From Haladaptatus paucihalophilus DX253 (GTDB taxonomy: Archaea > Halobacteriota > Halobacteria > Halobacteriales > Haladaptataceae), in assembly GCF_000376445.1 (NCBI RefSeq), contig NZ_AQXI01000001.1, forward strand, positions 62,001-126,000: DNA of 64,000 nucleotides, written 5' to 3'. The notes beneath the pieces were generated by a model that saw only the letters and a program-made list of their open reading frames with translations, searched no databases and was not told the origin of the DNA. Shown here piece after piece: positions 20,503 through 61,659 of this stretch. How positions within the stretch are numbered: position 1 is the stretch's first letter; every line of letters starts with the position of its first letter. A program made the translations under genes and the position numbers.

Positions 20503-20629
20503 GGGAAGGAGTAATCGGACGTTTCGTCGCGGAACGGGATTCGAATCGGACGATACCGTCCCGAACGCGACCGTTAGACGACTGTACGAGAACGCTTTTC
20601 TCGATAGTCGGAATCGAATTCGGTAGCCA

Positions 20630-20911
20630 ATGCCCGTCCGCCCGCACGACCTCGAGTTAGTCGTTAGCCTCGGAATACTGCTCCTCAGCGTGGGGCTAGG
20701 GACGTTGACCTACCTGACGTGGCGACGCGAACGCGAGCGACGGTTGGCTATCGTCACCGTTGCGTACGTGCTGTTCGCCCTCCGAGGGCTCGCGGTCGTC
20801 CTCGAAGAGACGTTCTTGATGTCGGTACGGCCGGAGCTCATCGACCACCTCTCGTCGTTGTTCGTCCTGCTGGGTCTCCTGTTGTTCTTCGTGGCAATCG
20901 CACGGGACTGA
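20630..20911 (+). CDS. DUF7521-like three-helix membrane protein
   Basis: 93 residues with three hydrophobic segments (LVVSLGILLLSVGLGTLTYL, IVTVAYVLFALRGLAVVLEE and LFVLLGLLLFFVAIA) and a basic first loop (WRRERERR). It lies two bases before the winged-helix gene, so the two are co-translated. A similar pair lies at 61043-61659 with the order reversed. A membrane partner for the regulator is inferred from this repeated pairing. Confidence 0.75.
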   Translation: MPVRPHDLELVVSLGILLLSVGLGTLTYLTWRRERERRLAIVTVAYVLFALRGLAVVLEETFLMSVRPELIDHLSSLFVLLGLLLFFVAIARD

Positions 20912-20913
20912 AC

Positions 20914-21429
20914 ATGGACGAGCCCGAACTCGAATCACGGCGCGTCATCTTCGGCGAAATCCGAGAGACGCCGGGGATTCACTTCCGCGAACTGCTCCGG
21001 CGACACGAGTACGCACAGGGGACGATTCAGTACCATCTCCGATGGCTCGAAGACGAAGGACTCGTCGAATCGTCGGACGACGGTAACTTCACGCGCTACT
21101 ACCCGGCCCACTCGTTCGAAGCGGCGGACAAATCGACGATGAACGCGCTTCGCCGGACGTACTCGCGTCGAATTATCGCTCTTCTCGCGTCGGAGGAGCG
21201 ACTCAGTACCGCGGCCCTGAGCGAACGCGTCGGCAAGTCGCGCTCGACCGTCTCGTGGCACCTCTCTCGACTCCACGAGGAGGAAATCGTCGAAAAGGAA
21301 CGCGACGGGCGCACCGTGCTCTACTCGCTTCGGGACCCGGACCAGGTGATGCGCCTCTATGCGACCTATCAAGCGAGTTTCCGCGACCGTCTCCTCGATA
21401 AAGTGCTCGACCTGTGGGACGTCTACTGA
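20914..21429 (+). CDS. Tandem winged-helix transcription regulator
   Basis: 171 residues from ATG 20914. Two consecutive winged helices are visible: IRETPGIHFRELLRR then GTIQYHLRWLEDEGLVES (about 10-65), and RRIIALLASEERLSTAALSE then STVSWHLSRLHEEEIVEKE (about 85-145). A short C-terminal helical tail follows. No ligand domain is present. The 3' end overlaps the convergent membrane gene at 21423 by 7 bp. The apbE operon next door is a candidate target. Confidence 0.85.
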   Translation: MDEPELESRRVIFGEIRETPGIHFRELLRRHEYAQGTIQYHLRWLEDEGLVESSDDGNFTRYYPAHSFEAADKSTMNALRRTYSRRIIALLASEERLSTAALSERVGKSRSTVSWHLSRLHEEEIVEKERDGRTVLYSLRDPDQVMRLYATYQASFRDRLLDKVLDLWDVY

Positions 21430-21962
21430 GTCGGACGGGCCGCGCGGATTCCGCCGAACAGTTTCGAGACGAGCGCGACGCCCACGAAACCGACCGAGGC
21501 GGCGACGAGTTGCCCGAGCAGTCCCGTCATGTCGCTCCCGATAGCGACCGCGTGGATGGTCGCAAACGCGAACCCACCGTAGGCGAGGGCGTGAATCGCT
21601 TTCGGGTGCTCGAACCGACGCGGTTCGAGAAACCCCAACACGGCCACGACGACCAACACGACGGCGACGCCGCCGACGCCGACGCCCGCGATGAACAGGG
21701 GGAACGGATAGTTCGGCGCGGGGGCGATTCCGTCCACCACCAACCACGCGTCGATGGTCCCGACGACGGCGTGCAGGACCATCATACCGACCGCGAAGAC
21801 GGCCAGTTCGATGTGCGTCCGTAGCGATAGCCAGTGTATCGCGCCGAACCGCCGCTCCGTGAAGAACACGCCCGTCAACACGGTGAGCCAGAGCGCCGGA
21901 TAGAGCACCAGCGCCGACGCGCGGTCGAGGTACCAGAGCGCGAGGGTGACGACTTCGTTCAT
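21423..21962 (-). CDS. Ferric reductase-like membrane protein, probable heme b carrier
   Basis: 179 residues with about five transmembrane helices. Histidine pairs are placed as in ferric reductase/MsrQ-like cytochromes: LSLRTHIELAVFAVGMMVLHAV and HPKAIHALAYGGFAFATIHAVA. They could bind one or two hemes across the membrane. It is the last gene of an operon with apbE and a small exported Cys-containing protein, overlapping the latter by 4 bp. The neighbours suggest trans-membrane electron transfer to the outside. Heme binding is inferred from the spacing, not proven. Confidence 0.72.
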   Translation of the reverse strand: MNEVVTLALWYLDRASALVLYPALWLTVLTGVFFTERRFGAIHWLSLRTHIELAVFAVGMMVLHAVVGTIDAWLVVDGIAPAPNYPFPLFIAGVGVGGVAVVLVVVAVLGFLEPRRFEHPKAIHALAYGGFAFATIHAVAIGSDMTGLLGQLVAASVGFVGVALVSKLFGGIRAARPTQ

Positions 21963-22294
21963 GAGGCGCGCGTCGTGGTCACGACGGACTGACAGCCGCT
22001 CTGACAGGTCCCGGCGGCGTTCGTGTTGCCGCCGCCGCTGCCGCCACCGTACTCCCCCTCATCGTCTTCATCGTACTCGTGGTGCTCACCGTACTCGTCC
22101 TCGTGGCTCTCGGAGACCGCTCGCCCGCCGTCGGGCGGTTGATACTGCTGTGGATTGGTCGCTTGCGGCGAATGGTCGTTGCCCGTTCCTTGGTATGCCG
22201 TCCGGTAGGCCATGACTCCGGTCACACAGACGAGCGCGAGCACGACGACGGTCAGCGCGAGCAGCGTTCGGCGGCGTTTACCGGACGTGTTCAT
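21959..22294 (-). CDS. Small exported His/Asp/Cys-containing protein
   Basis: 111 residues. A signal anchor (RRRTLLALTVVVLALVCVTG) precedes an extracytoplasmic tail that is rich in His, Asp, Glu and Tyr (ESHEDEYGEHHEYDEDDEGE), then Gly, and ends with CQSGCQS (a CxxxC pair). This suggests metal or redox chemistry at the cell surface. The flavinylation consensus of ApbE substrates (S/T-G-A-T) is not present. It overlaps apbE by 17 bp and the membrane cytochrome-like gene by 4 bp, so all three are one operon. No family recognised. Confidence 0.68.
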   Translation of the reverse strand: MNTSGKRRRTLLALTVVVLALVCVTGVMAYRTAYQGTGNDHSPQATNPQQYQPPDGGRAVSESHEDEYGEHHEYDEDDEGEYGGGSGGGNTNAAGTCQSGCQSVVTTTRAS

Positions 22295-23174
22295 CGAATC
22301 CCTCCGTTTCGTGGAAGACGCCCTGATGGACGACCAACGCCTCCGCCCCGTCCCAGTCTTCGGCGAGTCGAATCGCGTCCTCGGGTCGGAGCGCGGCGAG
22401 CGTGGTGGCGAGCGCGTCGGCTTCCATGCAGTCTCGACGCGCGACGACCGTCACGAGGTCGTTGTGCGACCGGGTGCGTTCCTCCTTCGGATTGTAGATG
22501 TGCTCTCTCCCGTCGCGGTTGCGGCGGTAGCCGCCCGACGTGGCGACGTTCCACGGCGTCGAGAGCACGCGGAGATTCGTCTCGGTGCCGTACGGACTCT
22601 CGATGCCGACCGGTCCGGTCGGCCGTGCGATGTCGCCGCCGCCGTCGACGAATCCCCGGCGGCCCAGCCCCGAGAGTTCGGCGTGCGCCCGGTCCACGAT
22701 GTATCCCTTGGCGAGACCGTTGCAGTCGAGCGGTCCGTCGGTCGTCACGGTGTCACCATCGACCGCGACCGACGACGGGTCGAACGTCTCGGAGACGGTG
22801 GAACAGTCGCCGCGAATGTACGCCTTCAGTTCGTGTTCGATGGTTCCGTGATGGATATCGAAGACGCCGCCAGTCCGTTCGTAGTAGGCCAGCCCGCGGC
22901 GAACGATTCGTGCGACGTGGGCGTTCGTGACGCGCCCCGACCGATTCAGGCGGGCGACCTGGCTCGATTCGTCGAACGCGTCGAGTTGCCGTTCCAAGCG
23001 GAGCGCGGTGTCTTTCGCCCGCTCGCATGCCAGCTCCGCTCGGACGCCATCCGCGTGTATTCGAAAAGTCGTATCACAACAGTCGAACGACGCGGTGGCT
23101 TCGCCAACCGTCGCGTACAGTCGGTGTTTCGGTGTCGAATCCCCCAATCGGGAACGTATCCGAGGGCGATGCAT
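22278..23174 (-). CDS. apbE: FAD:protein FMN transferase (ApbE)
   Basis: 298 residues. ApbE attaches FMN covalently to Thr/Ser of target proteins. Visible motifs are ERQLDAFDESSQVARLN near the start, then CNGLAKGYIVDRA and VDGGGDIA (FAD and Mg binding), and TSGGYRRN (usual TSGxYxR). ADALATTLAAL at the end matches ADxxxTAL. No bacterial-type lipoprotein signal is visible, so it may act in the cytosol. It is the first gene of the three-gene operon; the target protein is not obvious nearby. Confidence 0.9.
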   Translation of the reverse strand: MHRPRIRSRLGDSTPKHRLYATVGEATASFDCCDTTFRIHADGVRAELACERAKDTALRLERQLDAFDESSQVARLNRSGRVTNAHVARIVRRGLAYYERTGGVFDIHHGTIEHELKAYIRGDCSTVSETFDPSSVAVDGDTVTTDGPLDCNGLAKGYIVDRAHAELSGLGRRGFVDGGGDIARPTGPVGIESPYGTETNLRVLSTPWNVATSGGYRRNRDGREHIYNPKEERTRSHNDLVTVVARRDCMEADALATTLAALRPEDAIRLAEDWDGAEALVVHQGVFHETEGFDEHVR

Positions 23175-23274
23175 ACAACCGAGTTCAAAGGGCGACTCAA
23201 TAGGGATTCGCGTCCATCTATCGAATGTTCGTCCAATCGTCGAATCGAACGGTCACCCGTCGAATCGGGCGACC

Positions 23275-58187: not shown

Positions 58188-58799
58188 TTATTCGAACCGC
58201 GAAACGACGTTTTCGTAGTTGTCAGCAACCTCGTCCCAGTCGATGACTTCGAAGACGTTCTCCACGAAGTCGCCGCGGTCCGGTCCGTAGTCGTAGTAGT
58301 AGGAGTGCTCCCACACGTCCACCGCGAGAATCGGGTGGCTGCCCCAGAGCGCGCCCTGGTCGTGCTTGTCGACCTTGACGTTACGGAGCTGTTTGGCCAC
58401 CGGGTCGTACACGAGGAGTGCCCAGCCACCGGCGGCGCTCGCGGCGGCCTCGAACTCGCCCTTCCATCCCTCGTAGGAACCGAAGTCCTCCTCGATGCGG
58501 TCGGCGAGGTCTCCCTCGGGTTCGCCGCCGCCGTTCTCGTCCATGTTCTCCCAGAAGAGGGTGTGGAGGTAGTGACCACAGCCGTTGTGGGTCACGTTAC
58601 CCAGCGCACCCGCCGTGCTGGAGTAGTCACCGGACTCGCGGTTCTCCGCGAGGGTCTCCTCGGCACTGTTGAGGCCGTTTACGTAGCCCTGGTGGTGGGT
58701 GTCGTGGTGCCACGTGAGAACCTGCTCGGAGATGTGCGGTTCCAGCGCGTCGTAGTCGTACGGGAGCGGTGGTAGTTCCGCGTTCGATTTTTCTGCCAT
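58188..58799 (-). CDS. sod: Superoxide dismutase (Mn/Fe type), copy 1
   Basis: 203 residues. The metal ligands are His in [15 protein letters not shown], His in HYLHTLFWEN, and Asp and His in LAVDVWEHSYYYDY. It converts superoxide to peroxide and oxygen in the cytosol. The ribosome binding site GGAGGT stands 9 bases before ATG. The second copy lies 120 bp upstream on the same strand and is clearly diverged. Confidence 0.95.
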   Translation of the reverse strand: MAEKSNAELPPLPYDYDALEPHISEQVLTWHHDTHHQGYVNGLNSAEETLAENRESGDYSSTAGALGNVTHNGCGHYLHTLFWENMDENGGGEPEGDLADRIEEDFGSYEGWKGEFEAAASAAGGWALLVYDPVAKQLRNVKVDKHDQGALWGSHPILAVDVWEHSYYYDYGPDRGDFVENVFEVIDWDEVADNYENVVSRFE

Positions 58800-58808
58800 A
58801 TATGTATT

Positions 58809-58814
58809 ACCTCC
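58809..58814 (-). promoter_or_regulatory. Strong ribosome binding site of sod copy 1
   Basis: On the minus strand GGAGGT sits nine bases before the ATG at 58799, an unusually good match in a genome where most genes look leaderless. AGATATAG and GGTTTAACA upstream are promoter candidates, so copy 1 has its own promoter. Confidence 0.6.
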
Positions 58815-58919
58815 ACTAACTATATCTCACCTCGGCCTGTTAAACCTTGAGGAGAAGTTCGCTAACATACAGCATGATACGCCGGCAAAATATTCTGCTT
58901 TCGGACGCCAACGCGGCCG

Positions 58920-59522
58920 TTACATCCCGCTGGCTTCGTCGTAACGTTCCTCAACGTCGTCCCAGTTAACGACGTCCCAGAAGTTGTCCACGTACTCGCC
59001 GCGGTTGTTCTCGTACTGGAGGTAGTAGGCGTGTTCCCACACGTCCAGCACCAAGAGCGGCGTCGTCCCTTGCGGTGACTGGTTCTGGTGATTCTCGGCC
59101 ATGCTCACGATGGGAATGTCGGCCACGTGGTCGTAGAGCAACATCCCCCATCCCGAGCCTTCGACGCCCTTCGCGGCCTCCGAGAAGTGCGTTTTGAACT
59201 CCTCGAACGACCCGAACTGTTCGTCGAGGGCGTCGGCGAGGTCGCCGCCGGGTTCGCCGCCGCCGTCCGGGGACATGTTCTCCCAGAAGACGGAGTGGTT
59301 GACGTGTCCCGAGAGGTTGAACGCGAGATTGCGCTCGACGCCTTTGACGTCGCCCCACTCGTCGTTTTCGCGCATCTCTTCCAACTTGTCGAGCGCCGCG
59401 TTCGCACCGTTGACATAGCCTTGGTGGTGTTTGTCGTGGTGCAATTCCATGATGTGCGCGTCGATGCTCGGTTCCAGTGCGTCGTAGCTATACGGTAGGT
59501 CCGGTAGTTCGTAGGTCGCCAT
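58920..59522 (-). CDS. sod: Superoxide dismutase (Mn/Fe type), copy 2
   Basis: 200 residues from ATG 59522. The ligands are His in [16 protein letters not shown], His in [11 protein letters not shown], and Asp and His in [14 protein letters not shown]. It shares the fold and ligands with copy 1 but differs along most of its length, so the duplication is old or one copy was acquired. [19 protein letters not shown] is the conserved stretch both share. Confidence 0.95.
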
Positions 59523-59593: not shown

Positions 59594-60130
59594 TCACACG
59601 GTGACCCGGCAGGAACGAGGGTCTCCCGCACGGCCGAGAAACCCGAGGAGGAGCACGATACCGCCGACGCGAAGCAGGTCGCCGTGGAACGGCAGCGCGG
59701 CCATCGCGCCCGCGAAGCCGAGGAAACCGAGCAGGCCCGCGCCGCAACTCGCGCACCCGGACGCGACGAGTCCCGGCAGGACGCCGGTCAGGTCGGAGAG
59801 GCTCGACACACCCGTGACGCGAGCCTGTGCCGCGGCGTTCGTCACCGCGACGCCGGTCAGCACCGCGTAACAGACGATGAGACCCAGCCCGAACCAACCG
59901 TTCGTCGCCAAGACGTTCTCGGTCAGCAGGACGAGCGTATCGTCCGCCCACTGCATCCCCGCCCCGAGCATCTGCATCGACATCTCCGGGAACGTCGAGA
60001 GGATGAGCAGGACGTACGTGACGGCGGCGACGACGGCCGTCCCCACCGCTCGCGGGAGCGAACTCACCGGATAGGCGAGGGCGGCGGCGAGTTGCGAGAG
60101 TAGCCGTCGGGTGCGCGATTTCCCCGTCAT
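59594..60130 (-). CDS. Membrane protein with an intramembrane CxxC motif, partner of the DsbA-like protein
   Basis: 178 residues from ATG 60130. Four to five helices include LPGLVASGCASCGAGLLGFL, which places a CASC pair in a helix. It overlaps the DsbA-like gene by 4 bp, so they are co-translated. This suggests a thiol-redox partner (electron acceptor or reductant) but it is neither DsbB nor DsbD by motif. Alternatively it is a metal transporter-like protein. Unknown family. Confidence 0.68.
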   Translation of the reverse strand: MTGKSRTRRLLSQLAAALAYPVSSLPRAVGTAVVAAVTYVLLILSTFPEMSMQMLGAGMQWADDTLVLLTENVLATNGWFGLGLIVCYAVLTGVAVTNAAAQARVTGVSSLSDLTGVLPGLVASGCASCGAGLLGFLGFAGAMAALPFHGDLLRVGGIVLLLGFLGRAGDPRSCRVTV

Positions 60131-60924
60131 GCGTCTCGAATCTTCCGAATGGCGCTTTCGAACCGCGGATACGGCTGTGCGCCCATTATTTTCCCGGCCT
60201 TCTCCGACTCCCGGTCGAAGAAGATGAACCCCGGCGTCGCGCTCACGTCGCTCCGCGTAGCGGCGTTCACGTCGTCGTCGATGCTCGATTGGAGCGACGC
60301 ACCGTTCTCCCCCAAACACGACTCGACCGCTTTCGCGTCCACCCCATCGACCGTGCGGGTGATGTCGAGCAGGTTCTCCTTCGACGCCCACCCGGAGTTC
60401 GGTTTCCCCTGCTCGTCGAACATCGTCGAATGCCAGCGCTTGAACGCCGCGGGAGAGTCGTCGCGCACCTGTCGCCAGACGCACTTCGCCATCCGCGAGG
60501 CCGTCGTCGAGGCGCTCCCGATGTTCGGCAGTTCGAGGACGACGAAGCGAATCTTCCCCGGCCGGAGGTAGTTCTCGACCAACTTCGGGAACGTGTCCTG
60601 TTCGAACCGGCTGCAGAACGGACACTGATAGTCGCTCCAGTAGTAGATATCGACGTCCGCATCCGGCGCACCGAGGATCGGATTGCCCGCCAGATCGACT
60701 CCGTACGCCGTCGTTTCGTCGCTTCCGAACACGAGCGAGTCGCTCGTATCCCCGTTCGTTCCGCCCCCCGTTCCGCCGTCGCCCCCGTCCGATGACGTCG
60801 ATTTCGTCGTCCCCGTCGTGTCGTTCGAGTCCGTTTGGCCGCTCGCGCATCCGGCCAATCCGGCGGCCACCGCGGCCGACCCGAGAAATGCTCTGCGACG
60901 CATCCGTCTCTCGTTGCCAGTCAT
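60127..60924 (-). CDS. DsbA-like thiol oxidoreductase lipoprotein
   Basis: 265 residues. The Tat-type signal (MRRRAFLGSAAVAAGLAGC) has a lipobox, then a Gly/Ser/Thr linker. The thioredoxin fold has active site YYWSDYQCPFCSRFEQ and cis-proline SATPGFIFF, with a helical insertion between, as in DsbA/DSBA-like DsbG proteins. It is predicted to oxidise or isomerise cysteines of exported proteins outside the membrane. Confidence 0.9.
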   Translation of the reverse strand: MTGNERRMRRRAFLGSAAVAAGLAGCASGQTDSNDTTGTTKSTSSDGGDGGTGGGTNGDTSDSLVFGSDETTAYGVDLAGNPILGAPDADVDIYYWSDYQCPFCSRFEQDTFPKLVENYLRPGKIRFVVLELPNIGSASTTASRMAKCVWRQVRDDSPAAFKRWHSTMFDEQGKPNSGWASKENLLDITRTVDGVDAKAVESCLGENGASLQSSIDDDVNAATRSDVSATPGFIFFDRESEKAGKIMGAQPYPRFESAIRKIRDA

Positions 60925-61042
60925 TATTGAATACCCGTCTCGTGTTCACCCAACACGGGTGTCGGTTAAATCCCCGATGGGACGTTTTCAGAGTCAGAAA
61001 CCACCCGGTACGTTTTAACCGCCGAAGTGCGGTACTCGATTT

Positions 61043-61393
61043 GTGAGTGAGGAGCCGCGTCCGGCCGAGTTGTTTCGCTTGCTGGACGACGAGTACGCGC
61101 GTGCCATCCTCACGAAAACGAGCGAACGACCGATGTCAGCACAGACCCTACGCGACGAATGCGACGCCTCGCTTCCGACGATTTACCGGCGGCTCAACGA
61201 CTTGGAAGCGTGTGACTTGATAGAGAAATACACCCGCCCGGAACCGGACGGAAACCACCGCTCGATGTACGAAGCCGCGGTCGAAAACGTCGAAATCGAC
61301 ATCGAGGACGGCGACCTCGAAGTCACCGTCACCGAGCGCGAGGACACGGCCGACCGCTTCACTCGCGTCTGGGAAGGACTGCGGAGGGACTGA
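61043..61393 (+). CDS. ArsR-like winged-helix regulator
   Basis: 116 residues from GTG 61043. LFRLLDDEYARAILTKTSER, then SAQTLRDECDASLPTIYRRL and NDLEACDLIEKY form one winged helix; the rest is a short acidic dimerisation tail. It is divergent from the DsbA-like gene (118 bp), an evident target, and two bases before the DUF7521-like gene. Confidence 0.88.
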   Translation: MSEEPRPAELFRLLDDEYARAILTKTSERPMSAQTLRDECDASLPTIYRRLNDLEACDLIEKYTRPEPDGNHRSMYEAAVENVEIDIEDGDLEVTVTEREDTADRFTRVWEGLRRD

Positions 61394-61395
61394 CG

Positions 61396-61659
61396 ATGCG
61401 CCTCGAACTCCTCGCCGGGAAACTCCTCGTCATGGCGCTCGGACTGCTCATCGCGTATCAGGGATTCCGCGGCTACCGACGGAATCAGAGCGAACCGATG
61501 TTCTTCGTCGCCGTCGGCTTCGTCTTCCTCACGCTCGGCGGGACGATGGGCTGTACGCTCATCCACACCCTCGGTATCTCCGCGTTCGTGCTCGGCATCG
61601 CGCAGACGATGTTGGTCGCGGTCGGCATGGGCTTCGTCCTCTATTCCCTGTACGGATGA
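61396..61659 (+). CDS. DUF7521-like three-helix membrane protein with Cys
   Basis: 87 residues: three helices (LLVMALGLLIAYQGF, FFVAVGFVFLTLGGTMGC and FVLGIAQTMLVAVGMGFVLY) with a basic first loop (RGYRRNQ). A Cys and two nearby residues (GCTLIHTLG) could sense redox state or metal. It has the same design as the protein at 20630-20911. It is co-translated with the winged-helix gene. Confidence 0.75.
   Translation: MRLELLAGKLLVMALGLLIAYQGFRGYRRNQSEPMFFVAVGFVFLTLGGTMGCTLIHTLGISAFVLGIAQTMLVAVGMGFVLYSLYG

Follow-up and report, generated by a model that had tools for sequence, protein, structure and literature searches.

Winged-helix and membrane-protein gene pairs as candidate local switches for envelope redox operons in Haladaptatus

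Two gene pairs of Haladaptatus paucihalophilus, each coding for a winged-helix (wHTH) regulator and a three-helix membrane protein, lie beside operons for redox proteins of the cell envelope. On balance, we favor the view that each pair forms a local membrane-linked switch for the operon that it adjoins. Local control of these redox genes by the adjacent wHTH protein is the part that sequence comparison supports well. More broadly, the arrangement suggests that these pairs let the cell respond to the state of its surface by switching envelope redox genes directly. We envision that the wHTH protein would bind a short candidate operator placed both beside its own promoter and beside that of the redox operon. 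The membrane protein would share a transcript with the regulator and form the sensing or tethering half, altering the regulator according to the conditions met at the outer face.

Results

The window, which is the whole stretch of 64,000 nucleotides analyzed here, holds pair 1 as mem1 (20630-20911, plus strand) followed by wh1 (20914-21429, plus), and pair 2 in the reversed order, as wh2 (61043-61393, plus) followed by mem2 (61396-61659, plus). The genes of each pair are 2 bp apart, and the sequence bears out the coordinates, gaps and gene order that an earlier note on this DNA had given. The mem1 protein (93 aa, without Cys) is modeled by AlphaFold2 as three helices (pLDDT 87.8), and the positions matching its residues E69, E72 and H73 are invariant or nearly so among relatives. 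The wh1 regulator (171 aa, also without Cys) has two winged-helix domains, one of the HVO_0163 N-terminal type (HTH_HVO_0163_N, PF24266; 74.2 bits for a Pfam cut-off of 31) and one HTH_24/ArsR-like, and in structure comparison its C-terminal half resembles ArsR-family structures. The wh2 regulator (116 aa) has a single domain (HTH_20) and belongs to the same family as the likely CsmR orthologue of Haloferax. Its partner mem2 is a three-helix membrane protein of 87 aa, whose Cys53 (codon 61552-61554) is predicted to lie at the outer end of helix 2.

Both membrane proteins had been described as DUF7521-like. This is true of mem2, which scores 64.0 bits against DUF7521 (PF24365, cut-off 27), but not of mem1, which stays below the cut-off at 13.1 bits (E 0.13). 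Because mem1 falls short and wh1 and wh2 come from different winged-helix families, we rejected the idea that the pairs are one duplicated wHTH-DUF7521 module. The claim of a module "repeated twice" was an understatement as well: the Haladaptatus genome has 11 DUF7521 genes, so that two in one window are unremarkable. A profile-profile comparison of the mem1 and mem2 families (hhalign, 32 relatives each) gave a probability of 52% over 42 columns spanning helix 1, the Arg-rich loop and helix 2. A remote common membrane ancestor is possible, and we treat the two as analogous pairs that may share it. No convincing mem1 homologue was found elsewhere in the Haladaptatus genome, and an Rfam search around pair 1 gave no match.

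Pair 1 is convergent with an ApbE-containing operon on the minus strand (21423-23174) and pair 2 is divergent from a dsbA-like gene. The pair-1 operon contains apbE, coding for a FAD:protein FMN transferase (22278-23174, minus; PF02424, 118.3 bits for a cut-off of 25.6), a membrane-anchored carrier of 111 aa ending in CQSGCQSVVTTTRAS (21959-22294, minus), and a 179-aa membrane protein that looks dihaem-b or ferric-reductase-like (21423-21962, minus). The last of these scores 16.6 bits against Ferric_reduct (cut-off 28), and a fold search with its model gave no significant match, the NOX5 transmembrane domain coming top at E 0.97. Its four His residues (H50, H64, H124 and H137) are nevertheless invariant in 22 sequences and fall in two pairs, each 13-14 residues apart, which is the signature of dihaem ferric-reductase-type proteins. 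Public annotations call the genes of this cassette hypothetical, thrombospondin type 3 repeat or FAD:protein FMN transferase.

We found relatives of mem1 in 54 of 392 genomes, representing 26 of 95 genera. We read 47 other pair-1 loci at up to 11 kb each, calling genes with a simple codon-score caller written for this analysis, and all 47 have the same order: mem1, wh1, then the convergent cytochrome-like gene and apbE. Conversely, every one of the 50 matches to the cytochrome-like profile across the 392 genomes has a mem1 gene within 1.5 kb, in a search that scored at most eight candidates per genome and that a divergent copy could escape. In most cassettes the first gene encodes an anchored protein that is acidic and rich in His and Tyr; the window copy has no such gene.

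Flavinylation sites described in the literature follow the pattern D-x-x-[S/T]-G-A-[S/T], whose last residue receives the FMN; substitutions of the Asp make little difference, and terminal tags function well. The carriers of the relatives end accordingly in the [S/T]GA[S/T] core: the tail [ST][GR][AG][ST] is found in 46 of the 47 loci, mostly as DVVETTGAS, and the individual endings are [TN]TGA[ST] in 43, TTRAS in two, TTGGS in one and TTHAS in one, the last in a locus from the same genus as the window (L100). The window carrier, which is the counterpart of the TTGAS carriers, ends in TTRAS and does not fit the core. The TTRAS and TTHAS tails are thus seen in the window, in L100 and in two Haloferax loci (L144 and L145), and flavinylation of these carriers may differ or be absent. 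Carrier relatives also show a TSP3-like calcium loop that scores slightly below the Pfam cut-off. The presumed substrate has one N-terminal helix preceded by positive residues. Inspection of the ApbE N-terminus revealed neither a hydrophobic stretch nor a signal peptide, so that ApbE has the appearance of a cytosolic enzyme, whereas its presumed substrate seems to face outward. To account for this set of genes, we propose that the operon would encode a small electron-transfer chain, in which the dihaem-b-like membrane protein works with an anchored carrier that ApbE would flavinylate, in most relatives at the C-terminal TTGAS.

What, then, is the role of the membrane proteins? At least one DUF7521 gene is present in 84 of 94 genomes of the order, and most haloarchaeal genomes have several, up to the 11 found here; no publication that names the family turned up among those searched. 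In a complete listing from 15 genomes, this one included, a wh2-type wHTH gene lies directly upstream of 83 of 104 DUF7521 genes on the same strand. The spacing is within 10 bp in 66 of these 83 pairs, with a 4-bp overlap in 33, as would be expected of translational coupling. The pairing is far beyond chance, but it is general. Fused wHTH-DUF7521 proteins were looked for and none was found.

The other neighbors of DUF7521 pairs include CheW, KaiC, Sensor, DoxX, archaellins and MMPL exporters. These rule out the proposal that all DUF7521 pairs are redox-linked, so the redox reading fits the subfamilies of the window and not the whole family. In fact, the redox neighborhood announced by the earlier note holds for pairs 1 and 2 and fails family-wide. 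Plastocyanin-type genes are found upstream of 5 of 76 pairs and downstream of 4 of 77, and are absent from the families of 75 distant control genes, in tallies that list only the 25 most frequent Pfam families.

These data bear on the alternative that the local wHTH proteins do control the redox operons, with the membrane proteins being effector parts rather than sensors, for example a small subunit aiding the cytochrome or the DsbA-like protein. We regard this as unlikely, although mem1 is tied to the cytochrome-like gene as strictly as to wh1, and wHTH proteins of this kind can work without a membrane partner, as in Haloferax (see below). However, DUF7521 follows a wHTH gene in those 83 of 104 cases with the spacing of coupled genes while the other neighbors vary, which makes the regulator, not a redox protein, its constant partner.

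The Haloferax case concerns CsmR (HVO_1209) of Haloferax volcanii. According to the published account (PMC13286277), this 13-kDa protein recognizes a semi-palindrome adjacent to the TATA box of archaellum genes. Its own gene lies upstream of arlA1 and arlA2, and the amount of its transcript stays stable, so that its activity is suggested not to be controlled mainly by transcription. In Haladaptatus, one DUF7521 pair lies between a CheW-like gene and archaellins, and its wHTH protein is 57% identical to a 112-aa wHTH protein encoded upstream of two archaellins in two other Haloferax species. Copies of the published CsmR site, TATCA(N4)TGATA, occur at these loci, and by position, size and sites the 112-aa protein is probably the CsmR orthologue. 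Over its own length, wh2 shares 32% identity with this probable orthologue (E 3e-14). In the two Haloferax genomes no DUF7521 gene adjoins the orthologue, so that a membrane partner can be dispensable. DUF7521 is thus coupled to the archaellum-linked wHTH gene, which probably encodes CsmR, in this genome and not in the two Haloferax (L167, 4300-5950; L388, 1489-3290).

Pair 2 gives a hint of what the membrane half could sense. The gene divergent from wh2 encodes a DsbA-like thioredoxin-fold lipoprotein with a CPFC motif (60127-60924, minus; Thioredoxin_4, 77.9 bits). Conserved beside it is a gene for a 178-aa membrane protein with a CASC motif (59594-60130, minus), whose relatives gave no match in a Pfam scan. 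The closest homologues of pair 2 also have a DsbA-like neighbor, which may be divergent from, convergent with or co-directional with the pair, and the next group of homologues faces a plastocyanin-type lipoprotein. The earlier note would have given up its idea had the pairs been found near random genes; with the ApbE cassette in 47 of 47 loci and DsbA-like genes beside the closest homologues of pair 2, this is the case for neither pair.

A Cys at the position of mem2 Cys53 is present in 12 of 153 distinct DUF7521 sequences, and all 12 have a DsbA-like gene within 2.5 kb. Only one of the other 141 is DsbA-linked, and its sequence carries a Cys two positions before this site. The Cys that the earlier note saw in mem2 but not in mem1 thus tracks the DsbA linkage, in an association that may reflect a single evolutionary event, since the Cys-bearing members form one related group. 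By the positive-inside rule, we infer that Cys53 faces outward, where mem2 would read the thiol state of the outside through this lone outer Cys. If so, mem1, which has no Cys, must read something else, such as a quinone, metal or flavin state.

Could the regulators instead do the sensing themselves, in the cytosol, with wh2 using Cys40 and Cys57 and the membrane proteins being maintenance genes unrelated to the signal? We think this improbable, even though Cys40 of wh2 is conserved in the DsbA-linked group and thiol-based wHTH sensing is known in haloarchaea from OxsR (PMC9426492). In fact, wh1 has no Cys, the Cys that separates DsbA-linked from other members sits in the membrane protein, and a Cys at the wh2 position recurs in plastocyanin-linked relatives, as judged from the starts of the sequences.

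Two further features of dsbA-like loci stand out. In the window, two genes that by eye look superoxide-dismutase-like adjoin the locus (58188-59522), and several relatives have such a pair nearby (L147, L151 and L152). In two other loci (L154, 900-3900; L155, 2700-5650), genes for a wHTH protein, DUF7521, a DsbA-like protein, a membrane protein of 176-181 aa and a protein that by eye is CcdA-like all share one strand, which makes these dsbA loci more complete.

The motif TTCGAYNRNTGNACG adjoins the TATA-like region before mem1 in 47 of 47 loci, in one copy, and precedes the apbE operon in 46 of 47, usually in two. Because the motif was derived from these same loci and chosen after their sequences had been viewed, the per-locus counts are only descriptive, and exclusivity across genomes is the stronger test. 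Elsewhere in the same ~1.02 Mb, with both strands counted, there are 47 matches, some of them tandem again and placed before a divergent neighbor gene. The tandem motif yields 34 matches in 28 of the 392 genomes, of which 33 lie within 4 kb of mem1, while a reversed-pattern control yields none in the same genomes. The single match away from a mem1 cassette (G120:C1:304229, L378) may be chance or a relic.

In the window, candidate wh1 operator TTAGACGACTGTACG (20574-20588, plus; the motif with one mismatch) lies upstream of mem1, beside the TATA-like CGCTTTT. By the apbE promoter are the copies TTCGATAGATGGACG (23211-23225, minus) and, 19 bp from it, TTCGACGATTGGACG (23230-23244, minus), which together are the only exact tandem match in the whole Haladaptatus genome, and a third, weaker copy, TTCGACGGGTGACCG (23250-23264, minus). 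We propose that wh1, with its tandem wHTH domains, would bind the single motif upstream of mem1 and the tandem copies at the apbE operon. In two loci, the tandem motif also precedes a gene for an exported protein outside the core cassette (L120, 2309-2328; L105, 1522-1541), so the wh1 regulon may include a further secreted protein.

Mere hitch-hiking, in which compact mobile cassettes would hold the genes together while the regulator controls none of the redox genes, fits the patchy spread of the pair-1 cassette, which is often on plasmids and near transposases, but we consider it very improbable, given that both promoters retain one and the same motif in different genera despite diverged surroundings and that the tandem form is almost absent outside the cassette.

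For pair 2, the candidate operator is the palindrome GTTTTCAGAGTCAGAAACC (60984-61002), which lies between the divergent promoters; on one side of it is the TATA-like TTTTAA of wh2, and on the other a TTTAAC that precedes the dsbA-like gene on the opposite strand. A single palindrome bound by wh2 could serve both promoters. Allowing at most one mismatch, TTTCNGANTCNGAAA has 15 sites in the whole Haladaptatus genome (4.3 Mb), three of them in intergenic regions upstream of wHTH-DUF7521 pairs: two less than 70 bp from the wHTH start (C1:122986 and C1:2322930) and one about 270 bp upstream (C4:273831). Palindromes of 17 bp starting at -82 to -48 precede 24 of 82 wh2-type genes and 29 of 395 control upstream regions (p 3e-7), for an interval and a motif that were picked after seeing the sequences. 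The flanking intervals show no such excess, nor do palindromes of any position or spacing (7 of 83 before wHTH genes, 26 of 395 in controls).

For both pairs, the candidate operators lie upstream of the TATA-like element, which is a position used by activators, whereas the targets of CsmR are de-repressed, rising in the csmR deletion (PMC13286277). Hence wh1 and wh2 may act in either direction.

Discussion

To explain these results we go one step further, and more tentatively: haloarchaea may possess modular two-gene membrane switches, built from a CsmR-type wHTH and a DUF7521 sensor or, independently, from an HVO_0163-type wHTH and mem1, with the outer face tuned to the adjacent envelope system, for example by a single Cys where this system is a DsbA-like oxidase. 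The pair-1 switch would then drive an undescribed minimal electron chain, with FMN on the extreme C-terminus of an anchored protein.

The best working analogy for pair 1 is SdpR-SdpI of Bacillus subtilis, where a small wHTH and a polytopic membrane protein share one operon that is convergent to the ligand gene, and where SdpI, a toxin immunity protein, sequesters SdpR (PMC1626106). Neither mem1 nor mem2, however, matches the SdpI family in a Pfam scan. For pair 2 the closest case is CsmR, with palindromic sites next to the TATA box as in the candidate site of wh2. Yet wh2 faces a DsbA-like gene, has another palindrome and is coupled to DUF7521, while the accessible part of PMC13286277 mentions no membrane partner. 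Like OxsR of Haloferax volcanii, wh2 is a haloarchaeal single-wHTH protein linked to redox functions, but OxsR senses through its own thiol, and the abstract of PMC9426492 reports no membrane partner for it.

The pair-1 operon resembles the ApbE-flavinylated MsrQ-like systems (PMC8238504), whose components are likewise ApbE, a dihaem membrane protein and a carrier that is exported and bears a motif of the [S/T]GA[S/T] type. Here, in contrast, the carrier is an anchored protein of 95 aa (111 aa in the window), devoid of an FMN-binding domain and provided with the motif at its very C-terminus; five helices, rather than six, are predicted for the membrane protein; and ApbE has no visible signal peptide. 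The eLife 2021 flavinylation survey dropped genes without a signal peptide (PMC8238504). The cassette would add a new design of ApbE substrate, of a kind that lay outside the design of this survey.

Should the wHTH half prove to be under the control of the membrane half, these pairs would constitute a widespread archaeal signaling device that passes the state of the envelope to single local operons without a kinase. DUF7521 is also a candidate for the missing partner of CsmR-type regulators, and a possible answer to the question of what tunes them, since the CsmR transcript is stable and the archaellum-linked Haladaptatus member keeps its DUF7521 partner.

Two variants illustrate how such pairs are distributed. 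A 92-aa DUF7521 protein, about 41% identical to mem2 and nearly constant in score, lies beside a DoxX-like gene in L318-L321 and many other loci; its presence on small contigs of many genera suggests recent horizontal spread. In another set of loci (L157, L170, L172-L174, L177 and L178), the wHTH gene is followed by two tandem DUF7521 genes, facing an exported lipoprotein that is plastocyanin-type where scanned.
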